Assembly (NCBI RefSeq): GCF_000312665.1
Contig: NZ_HF536772.1
Span: 1,397,496 to 1,461,495 of the forward strand
DNA from: Rhizobium mesoamericanum STM3625
GTDB lineage: Bacteria > Pseudomonadota > Alphaproteobacteria > Rhizobiales > Rhizobiaceae
Length of the DNA stretch: 64,000 bases
Direction of reading: 5' to 3'
Below, one piece after another: positions 848 through 4,767 of this stretch. A program made the position numbers and the translations under genes. Each line of letters begins with the position of its first letter. The stretch's first letter is position 1. A model generated the notes under the pieces. The model was not told the DNA's origin. It worked only from the letters and a program-made list of their open reading frames with translations, and did not search any database.

Positions 848-982
848 ATGGAAGATAGGCGCCTTTCGTTTCCCAGCCTGCCTCTAGGCCAACTTGAGCA
901 CTGGTACGAGCCTGGTGCGGTTTGTCCCCTGTGCAGCCATGGCAAAGATTTGGATCGCTATGAATTCGTGCGACTTATCTAA
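848..982 (+). CDS. Possible 44-residue protein with a CxxC motif
   Basis: A short frame starts with ATG six bases after the tRNA and ends at 980-982, overlapping the stop of the HD-domain gene on the other strand. The product has a CPLC pair followed by DLDRYEFVRL, which looks more like a small zinc-binding or redox peptide than random translation. There is no clear ribosome binding site, since the ATG sits almost against the tRNA 3' end. It could be a remnant. Function unknown. Confidence 0.3.
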   Translation: MEDRRLSFPSLPLGQLEHWYEPGAVCPLCSHGKDLDRYEFVRLI

Positions 983-1437
983 GCGTCGCGTCGCCGCTCG
1001 ACTATTTTCAACCCTTTTTCATATTTGCTTGTATCCGATCCAATGCTTTTGGCCTGTGCAAGATTGTCCCTGAGATCTGCGACCTTCACAGGACGGGCGA
1101 GGGGGTTGCTCAAGGCCCGCATGATGAATTCGTCATCGCTCTCCTCGGGGCGTCTGGTTAATGCATCGACAGCCTCGATGATCGTGGAGCTGAAGCCCTC
1201 TTCCCGTAATCGATCCAGCGTCCAGCCGGGTCCCTTCTCGACCACGTCATGCAAATACGCGACGACGCGTTCGTCCTCATCCTCAACGGCATCAGCGACG
1301 CGCTTGCAATGCAGGAAATAAGGCCCGCCGGCTTTGTCGGTCTGTCCCGCGTGCGCCCTGCCTGCGATTTTTGCCGCATGCAGAAGGTCTAGCTGGTCGT
1401 CATGTTCATTAGTCGATTCTCGCCCACCTGCTGTCAT
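979..1437 (-). CDS. HD-domain phosphohydrolase, RelA/SpoT-hydrolase-like
   Basis: A 152-residue cytoplasmic protein resembling the stand-alone (p)ppGpp hydrolase/MESH1-like HD proteins. Visible signatures are AHAGQTDKAGGPYFLH (the RelA/SpoT entry motif, metal-ligand His43), YLHDVVEKG (His63-Asp64 pair), LTRRPEES and VKVADLRDNL (Asp121). This is a complete H...HD...D metal site. The family removes pyrophosphate from nucleotides such as (p)ppGpp, but the substrate here is not proven. The start at 1437 (MTAGGRES) gives a typical length; an ATG ten codons upstream is the alternative. It lies 26 bp after the secreted-protein gene and probably shares its EcfG-type promoter. Confidence 0.8.
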   Translation of the reverse strand: MTAGGRESTNEHDDQLDLLHAAKIAGRAHAGQTDKAGGPYFLHCKRVADAVEDEDERVVAYLHDVVEKGPGWTLDRLREEGFSSTIIEAVDALTRRPEESDDEFIMRALSNPLARPVKVADLRDNLAQAKSIGSDTSKYEKGLKIVERRRDA

Positions 1438-1463: not shown

Positions 1464-1838
1464 TCATTTTTCTGACCGCTCCAGCAGAATACGGGCCTCC
1501 TCGAAACGGCGCTTTCGGTCGCCGTCCGGCTCGTTCGGCGAATAGCATGTGGTTGATACACAGAAGCGAACGAGGTGATGAGGTTTGTCGACTTTGTCGA
1601 ACTCGCATGAGAACGCGTCGGTCATTTCGGCGGGCGTGGTGCCCTCGCGAGTAGAGTAGGTCATCCTCACTCCCGGCGGTTTCAGTTCCGGGAAGGACTG
1701 AACAGTACCGATCGCAAGTTTGCTCACCATGAAGAAGCCTCTGGCGACGGATTGACAAGTTGCCTCGAGTTCACGCGACTGCGCGAATGCGGAGGCAGGG
1801 AACATGAGAAGAAGGGATAGAACTAGGGTGTTTCGCAA
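1464..1838 (-). CDS. Small secreted protein of unknown function
   Basis: A 124-residue protein with a clear signal peptide (basic start, LVLSLLLMFPASAFA, cleavage after AFA). The mature part is periplasmic and contains four cysteines that could form two disulfides (ATCQS, FSCEF, RFCVS, TTCYS). I do not recognise the family. It is the first gene of a two-gene unit with the HD hydrolase, and the minus-strand EcfG promoter at 1889-1914 sits about 50 bp before its ATG, which suggests general-stress control. Confidence 0.62.
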   Translation of the reverse strand: MRNTLVLSLLLMFPASAFAQSRELEATCQSVARGFFMVSKLAIGTVQSFPELKPPGVRMTYSTREGTTPAEMTDAFSCEFDKVDKPHHLVRFCVSTTCYSPNEPDGDRKRRFEEARILLERSEK

Positions 1839-1888
1839 GTGGTCGCCTCCGCCTGTTAACGGGAGGCCGACAAATCCTCCCTATGCAT

Positions 1889-1914
1889 AACGGATCGGAA
1901 CATCCGAGAGTTCC
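1889..1914 (-). promoter_or_regulatory. EcfG (general stress sigma) promoter toward the secreted-protein/HD operon
   Basis: On the minus strand this reads GGAAC, 17 bases, CGTT, a full match to the alphaproteobacterial EcfG/RpoE2 consensus (GGAAC-N16/17-CGTT). The -10 element ends about 50 bp upstream of the start codon at 1838. It overlaps the oppositely oriented promoter at 1897-1921. Confidence 0.72.
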
Positions 1915-1921
1915 CGTCGTT
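1897..1921 (+). promoter_or_regulatory. EcfG promoter, distal, toward csbD
   Basis: GGAAC at 1897-1901, 16 bases, CGTT at 1918-1921: a perfect consensus on the plus strand. A transcript from here would carry a leader of roughly 230 nt before csbD, or could end earlier as a separate RNA. It shares most of its sequence with the divergent minus-strand site. Confidence 0.6.
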
Positions 1922-2103
1922 CCGTTGTCTGCGGCTGAAGAACGCCCACCCCCCGACGATCGGTTCGCCTTAAAGCGGCGCGAACTGCACAGCAGAGCAT
2001 CGTGCAGACTGCAATTGGGCCGCTTCTGGGAGCTGTCGCAATCCTGTAGCGCCGACATCAGGGAAATGAACGGCGTCGATCCGTCCGTCGTCGTGCATGC
2101 TTC

Positions 2104-2128
2104 GGAACACTCCGATGCCTTGGCCGTT
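2104..2128 (+). promoter_or_regulatory. EcfG promoter, proximal, for csbD
   Basis: GGAAC at 2104-2108, 16 bases, CGTT at 2125-2128. Transcription would start near 2135, giving a leader of about 27 nt that carries the AGAGGAGA ribosome binding site in front of the csbD ATG. CsbD genes are typical stress-sigma targets. Confidence 0.8.
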
Positions 2129-2161: not shown

Positions 2162-2368
2162 ATGGATTGGAACCGAATCGAAGGAAATTGGAAGCAGATG
2201 AAAGGCAAGATCAAGGAGCAGTGGGGCGAACTCACCGATGATGATCTTGATCAGATTGCCGGGAAGCGTGATCAGCTGGAGGGCAAAATCCAGGAGCGTT
2301 ACGGGATCCAGCGCGATCGTGCGCGGCGCGATATTGACGACTGGTACAACCGCCAAACCTGGCACTGA
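2162..2368 (+). CDS. CsbD-family stress protein
   Basis: A 68-residue, highly charged protein starting MDWNRIEGNWKQMKGKIKEQ, with WGELTDDDLDQIAGK and a second EGKIQERYG segment: the standard CsbD layout of a small helical bundle. CsbD proteins are abundant general-stress proteins with no known biochemical activity. Start and ribosome binding site (AGAGGAGA, 8 bp away) are clear. It is expressed from at least the proximal EcfG promoter at 2104-2128 and is closed by a hairpin at 2378-2400. It is convergent with the glycosyltransferase gene. Confidence 0.93.
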   Translation: MDWNRIEGNWKQMKGKIKEQWGELTDDDLDQIAGKRDQLEGKIQERYGIQRDRARRDIDDWYNRQTWH

Positions 2369-4528: not shown

Positions 4529-4554
4529 GGAACGCATACGACCTCTTGGTCGTT
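4529..4554 (+). promoter_or_regulatory. EcfG promoter for the 61-residue protein gene
   Basis: GGAAC at 4529-4533, 17 bases, CGTT at 4551-4554: a full match to the EcfG consensus. The start codon at 4582 is 27 bp further on, with AGGAGGAG between. Confidence 0.78.
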
Positions 4555-4581: not shown

Positions 4582-4767
4582 ATGCTTTTGAAGATTTTCA
4601 CGGCGAAGCGCGAAATCCGGGACAATGGCGATACCGGTACATACGCGGACGGCTACCATGCCCCCGAGATGGTCGTTGCGTCGCGGCGTGATGACGATCG
4701 TGCGTCCTACGAACGCGACTATGGCCGTGGCCGTAAAGTAGAGCAGGTTCCACTCGGGTTTAGCTGA
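4582..4767 (+). CDS. Putative EcfG-controlled 61-residue protein of unknown function
   Basis: Starts MLLKIFTAKREIRDNGD behind an excellent ribosome binding site (AGGAGGAG). The ATG at 4582 is preferred over a frame-mate at 4546 that overlaps the promoter. The product is hydrophilic with no signal peptide or membrane segment. Its middle is a run of Arg, Asp and Tyr (SRRDDDRASYERDYGRGRK), suggesting a disordered, nucleic-acid- or protein-binding peptide. I do not recognise the family. The perfect EcfG promoter places it in the general stress response. It is closed by the hairpin at 4847-4869. Confidence 0.68.
   Translation: MLLKIFTAKREIRDNGDTGTYADGYHAPEMVVASRRDDDRASYERDYGRGRKVEQVPLGFS

Follow-up and report, generated by a model that had tools for sequence, protein, structure and literature searches.

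The window, the whole stretch of 64,000 nucleotides of Rhizobium mesoamericanum STM3625 DNA that we analysed, contains a 33-bp block in which two matches to the consensus of the general-stress sigma factor EcfG face in opposite directions. On the minus strand the block precedes genes for a protein of secreted type (SEC) and an HD hydrolase, and on the plus strand it lies upstream of csbD. The features of this locus, with a further EcfG site and its open reading frame (ORF), are as follows.

979–1437, minus strand: HD hydrolase, 152 amino acids, related to (p)ppApp/(p)ppGpp hydrolase domains (Pfam HD_4)
1464–1838, minus strand: SEC ORF, 124 amino acids, TTG start, with an N terminus that we read as signal-peptide-like
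1846–1850, minus strand: Shine–Dalgarno-like GGAGG preceding the SEC start codon (TTG)
1914–1889, minus strand: EcfG-type promoter GGAAC-N17-CGTT, letters GGAACTCTCGGATGTTCCGATCCGTT, directed at the SEC/HD unit (the minus site)
1897–1921, plus strand: opposite EcfG-type match GGAAC-N16-CGTT, letters GGAACATCCGAGAGTTCCCGTCGTT, probably incidental (the plus site)
1899–1923, minus strand: tandem near-site GGAAC-N16-TGTT, mirror image of the plus site, read from the sequence
1929–2101: DNA that transcription from the plus site would cover, without a match in the genomes and loci searched
2104–2128, plus strand: EcfG-type promoter of csbD, an exact match to GGAAC-N16-CGTT
2162–2368, plus strand: csbD, 68 amino acids (Pfam CsbD, 5.1e-24)
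4529–4554, plus strand: exact EcfG site before a small ORF
4582–4764, plus strand: 61-amino-acid ORF, with the preceding site upstream

Both matches in the block are exact, as the earlier note on this DNA had read them: AACG-N17-GTTCC at 1889–1914 for the minus site and GGAAC-N16-CGTT at 1897–1921 for the plus site. Its statement that they share most of their bases also holds, the overlap being 18 bp (1897–1914). The sequence places the −35 box of each site within the spacer of the other and puts one −10 box at either end of the 33 bp. Two −35 boxes stand in tandem on the minus strand, an outer one at 1923–1919 and another at 1914–1910, and the whole forms an inverted repeat with outer arms GGAAC-N17-GTTCC and inner arms GGAAC-N8-GTTCC. 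Transcription from the minus site would be expected to start near 1882 and that from the plus site, if any, near 1928, which would put the opposite starts approximately 46 bp apart. By this geometry, polymerases could hardly occupy both sites simultaneously.

SEC has no match in Pfam or NCBIfam, and it has matches in 62 of the 148 genomes of the genus (own genome included). For the promoter count we took 57 SEC relatives from one-per-species genomes and searched the 200 nt upstream for exact GGAAC-N16/17-CGTT. A SEC-directed site is present in 21 of the 57, each of which has one at −100 to −64, compared with 0.21 in dinucleotide shuffles; the other 36 have no exact site. Conservation is patchy: among the best 30 SEC loci of the genus, only three have the exact site, namely the window and its nearest named relatives, Rhizobium sp. 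R711 (locus L070, genome G151) and Rhizobium sp. CF122 (locus L072, genome G028). At the same place these two relatives have an N16 spacer, against N17 in the window, and both retain the Shine–Dalgarno-like GGAGG before SEC. An exact reverse site upstream of SEC occurs in a single one of the 57 relatives, CF122. The earlier proposal that the minus site is the general-stress promoter of the secreted-protein/HD unit is thus supported by comparison, through the 21 of 57 relatives and through R711 and CF122, and the conserved letters suggest that EcfG would use this site in vivo.

The HD protein scores 4.4e-6 and 27.0 bits against Pfam HD_4, just below the cut-off of 27.2 bits. Its best relative of solved structure is 7smg, a (p)ppApp hydrolase (E 2.9e-23), followed by RelA/SpoT enzymes; it reads HDVVEK where 7smg has HDTIED. 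We found three relatives in which SEC and HD are adjacent (R711, CF122 and a third genome, G053), and the HD gene is probably co-transcribed with SEC. Of 20 HD loci, four have an EcfG site of their own directly before HD (0.04 in shuffles), and one has an exact reverse site, which does not overlap (L140).

The csbD gene has an EcfG site of its own, absent from the earlier note, which begins 58 nt before the gene. Of 30 csbD loci (own included), 22 have an exact site located between −55 and −60 (0.02 in shuffles), and the site is conserved in R711; in the 200 nt upstream of csbD, none of the 30 loci has an exact reverse site. In the available text of a study of Sphingopyxis granuli, csbD is listed as a direct target of the general stress response (PMC7083833), and in R. 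mesoamericanum, too, EcfG use of the csbD site in vivo may be predicted from its match and position. The plus site had been paired with csbD in the earlier note. That pairing falls away, because csbD has the nearer site that is common to 22 of 30 csbD loci and does not need the plus site, which we rejected as its promoter. In CF122, csbD (L072 3590–3745) is apparently missing its 5′ end and lacks an exact EcfG site.

The earlier note had offered an upstream RNA as the other possible product of the plus site. The stretch from 1929 to 2101 has no DNA match in 99 other genomes (a set without R711) and none in 167 fetched loci, which include R711 and CF122; in the same 167 loci, 1801–1928 matches both of these relatives. 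An Rfam search up to E 1 was empty, the region downstream of the plus site folds in no unusual way (z 0.43), and an ORF from 1925 gave no Pfam match and, in the 58 loci tested, none by tblastn. These comparisons yielded no conserved product for the plus site; the proposed RNA finds no support in them, and we set aside both a small RNA and an ORF as candidates. The distance between the starts of SEC and csbD is 0.32 kb in the window, approximately 1.7 kb in R711 and approximately 1.3 kb in CF122. A 263-amino-acid ORF lies between the two genes in both relatives (with a Nucleotid_trans match in R711), and R711 additionally has a DUF6894 ORF there. We also considered this DUF6894 gene as a former partner of the plus site and rejected it: it does lie downstream in R711, but the −35 box of the plus site is altered there.

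Whether relatives keep both motifs or only one was a check that the earlier note had named, and the answer is divided. In CF122 both sites are exact, although its SEC protein is only approximately 80% identical. R711 keeps the SEC-directed site exactly and has GAAAC-N16-CGTT in place of the plus site, and G053 has a SEC-directed site with one mismatch (GGAAC-N16-AGTT) and no plus site, neither box being exact. The plus site is therefore exact upstream of the orthologous gene in one of the three SEC–HD relatives. The tandem near-site is the same in CF122 and reads GAAAC-N16-TGTT in R711. Across the four aligned blocks, the spacer letters TCTCGG are identical in all four, the plus −35 is intact in two and the plus −10 in three. 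With only four sequences to compare, the letters specific to the plus site are no better kept than their neighbours, and the block does not seem to be kept for the plus −35. Sphingopyxis EcfG promoters almost always keep the AAC triplet, and GCAAC ranks second in frequency among their −35 boxes, in the available text of PMC7083833; because the GAAAC of R711 keeps this triplet, the plus site of R711 may retain some activity. Just upstream of the SEC promoter, R711 and CF122 share repeated imperfect palindromes, AGGACTTTGGTCCT (alignment columns 401–460), which are missing in the window.

Exact EcfG sites are more frequent in the window than expected. With spacers of N15–18 there are seven, compared with a mean of 1.66 in dinucleotide shuffles (none of 100 shuffles reached seven), and with N16–17 there are five, against an order-0 expectation of 1.0. 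Genome-wide, the single motif is not enriched (133 occurrences compared with 164 for the pattern read backwards), so a lone match proves little. NepR, the general-stress anti-sigma factor and the member of EcfG–NepR–PhyR for which we searched, is represented by a PF18557 match over the cut-off at C1:3257678-3257782.

The earlier note regarded the chance occurrence of the two perfect sites as low, which overlooks the partial self-complementarity of the EcfG consensus: GTT is common to the CGTT of the −10 box and the GTTCC of the reversed −35 box. In the self-symmetric register, three extra bases (GGAACG...CGTTCC) suffice for a perfect reverse site offset by 2 bp, and the computed chance of this is 2.7e-2. 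For the remaining overlapping registers taken together it is 3.4e-4 given one site, or approximately 0.045 per genome at 133 sites, and the pair in the window belongs to this remainder. On these figures the pair is unusual, not astonishing.

We also applied a relaxed rule for reverse sites (GNAAC-N16/17-NGTT) to 48 EcfG promoters at SEC, csbD and HD loci. An overlapping reverse site was found in 14 of them, and shuffling of the spacers and flanks gave 14.03 on average (171 of 300 shuffles reached 14); 11 of the 14 promoters have it in the self-symmetric register. The exact self-symmetric pattern, GGAACG-N14/15-CGTTCC, is present in 94 of the 148 genus genomes. Its reversed control is higher in most genomes (1 compared with 7 in the own genome), not in all (6 compared with 1 in G051), and 24 of 30 fetched occurrences lie inside mechanical ORFs of at least 100 amino acids, the other six outside. 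Across the 148 genomes, this pattern gives no sign of selected bidirectional promoters. The nested pair of the window occurs in two of the 148 genus genomes (own included), both times at the SEC locus (own and CF122), and among 385 genomes of the class (own included) in the own genome only; its neighbouring registers were each found in none of the 148.

Scoring of the flanks was given no weight. The score was trained on 38 sites chosen from 47, nine near-duplicates or the window's own csbD site having been omitted, and it gave −1.2 for the minus site, −4.6 for the plus site and 3.9 for the csbD site, with held-out families ranging from −16.8 to 5.4. With SEC sites removed from the training set, the minus site (0.9) fell below the plus site (2.3), which runs against a single promoter; the held-out spread and this reversal of order are the reasons for which we disregard the score.

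Other EcfG sites provide points of comparison. The exact site at 4529–4554 is likewise absent from the earlier note, and the 61-amino-acid ORF that follows it is 89% identical in R711 and CF122; the site is exact in CF122, and R711 has none within 250 nt. Among 100 listed of the 133 genomic places there is one further overlapping pair, at C1:1302127-1302153 (L150 1528–1554). There we read a GC-rich hairpin and then CCTTTT, located 25 nt beyond a chemoreceptor-like ORF, and this terminator-like pair is probably a false positive of consensus matching. At C1:2366230-2366341 (L155 1731–1842), two exact divergent EcfG sites do not overlap, with 60 bp between them, and this pair may be the more promising candidate for genuinely divergent stress promoters.

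The exact −35 and −10 boxes are those of EcfG (RpoE2/SigT-type) general-stress promoters of alphaproteobacteria; the motif of R. etli EcfG1 is given as GGAAC-N16-CGTT in the available part of PMC3892343. The locus differs from such promoters in the N17 spacer of the SEC-directed site and in the overlapping reverse match. An EcfG-dependent small RNA of R. etli, ReC64, whose start was mapped by 5′ RACE (PMC3892343), resembles the plus site in having an EcfG consensus before non-coding DNA, but here no conserved RNA or Rfam family follows. Bidirectional promoters of σ70 offer a second comparison. As described in the accessible sections of PMC12825309 and PMC10268837, their DNA is pseudo-symmetric and polymerase binds in either orientation, exclusively. 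Those reported by Warman, Grainger and co-workers in E. coli and Salmonella have symmetry at the −10 element and starts 7–25 bp apart, mostly 18 (PMC10268837, in those sections). The sequence of the pair in the window falls outside this definition of overlapping −10 elements, and its starts would be some 46 bp apart; the pair could at most work like these enterobacterial promoters. Among the open-access papers listed in our searches, we found no report of overlapping, bidirectional or symmetrical-divergent EcfG promoters.

The reading that we favour, with a probability of roughly two in three (0.66), is that the block holds one working minus-strand EcfG promoter for SEC and then HD, that the reverse match is mainly a by-product and that csbD relies on its own site. 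EcfG at the minus site would drive SEC and then the HD hydrolase, and csbD would be driven from 2104–2128. The outer tandem −35 with its near −10 (GGAAC-N16-TGTTCC) would, read backwards, supply the GGAAC-N16-CGTT of the plus site, a reverse match to which the partial mirror symmetry of the EcfG consensus gives rise. The plus site would then be weak or idle, perhaps an incidental site with weak activity, and the competition switch between SEC–HD and csbD that the earlier note envisaged is not supported. Several observations sit uneasily with a by-product. No second locus in the 148 genomes has the nested register, which is thus not the common self-symmetric one; CF122 keeps both exact sites, and the GAAAC version in R711 is maybe not dead. 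The joint change of the outer arms in R711 (GAAAC...GTTTC), the patchiness of the SEC promoter within the genus and the N17 spacer of the window, against N16 in both relatives, also count against the favoured reading. The converse is that these are true overlapping divergent EcfG promoters, both firing under stress and mutually exclusive, with reverse initiation damping SEC–HD and a plus transcript that is non-coding or a long csbD leader. Two exact consensus sites, both kept in CF122, speak for it, as does exclusion imposed by the 18 bp in common; E. coli bidirectional promoters supply a precedent, as strong one-way initiation represses the other direction (PMC12825309, as far as its accessible sections go). 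The altered plus −35 of R711, its absence from G053, the lack of a conserved downstream product and the site that csbD has of its own all weigh against it. In those sections, too, the basal activity of all five promoters tested in E. coli was too low for competition, which appeared once one direction was strongly activated. We consider true divergent promoters doubtful.

A wider form of this idea would make EcfG promoters two-faced as a class. A sizeable share (the 14 of 48 under the relaxed rule) would be enterable from both sides, with pervasive divergent stress transcription, and the window and CF122 would show a strong, nested version in which SEC–HD is capped by reverse initiation; we regard this as distinctly unlikely. 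The inverted repeat might instead be an operator for a dimeric regulator of SEC–HD, the EcfG look of its reverse half being coincidental. In R711 both outer arms are altered (GAAAC...GTTTC) and the inverted repeat is retained, a joint change by which the repeat itself could matter; the window, R711 and CF122 also agree in all letters of the 8-nt inner spacer. But this support comes from three sequences only, G053 is without the outer arm, and the genome shows no enrichment of the core palindrome GGAAC-N8-GTTCC (nine places compared with eight for the reversed control), a result on which we rejected the operator, now very improbable. That neither site is used and both are chance matches would agree with the unenriched single motif and with the 36 of 57 SEC relatives without an exact site; the positional conservation of the SEC-directed site in 21 of 57 relatives and in R711 and CF122 makes this hardly credible.

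The minus half of the block has comparative support as a promoter, to judge from related sequences, and the plus half has little. The minus site is likely an ordinary EcfG-type promoter, and what is useful here is the likely placement of SEC–HD in the regulon and the point about EcfG symmetry. The latter is a warning: because the motif is self-symmetric, overlapping opposite EcfG matches are to be expected. If reverse initiation were real, divergent transcription caused by symmetry would extend from σ70 to a stress sigma factor. For the organism, an uncharacterized secreted-type protein and an alarmone-hydrolase-like enzyme become likely members of the general stress regulon in a Rhizobium, and an EcfG-driven alarmone hydrolase would connect the general stress response with the stringent response.
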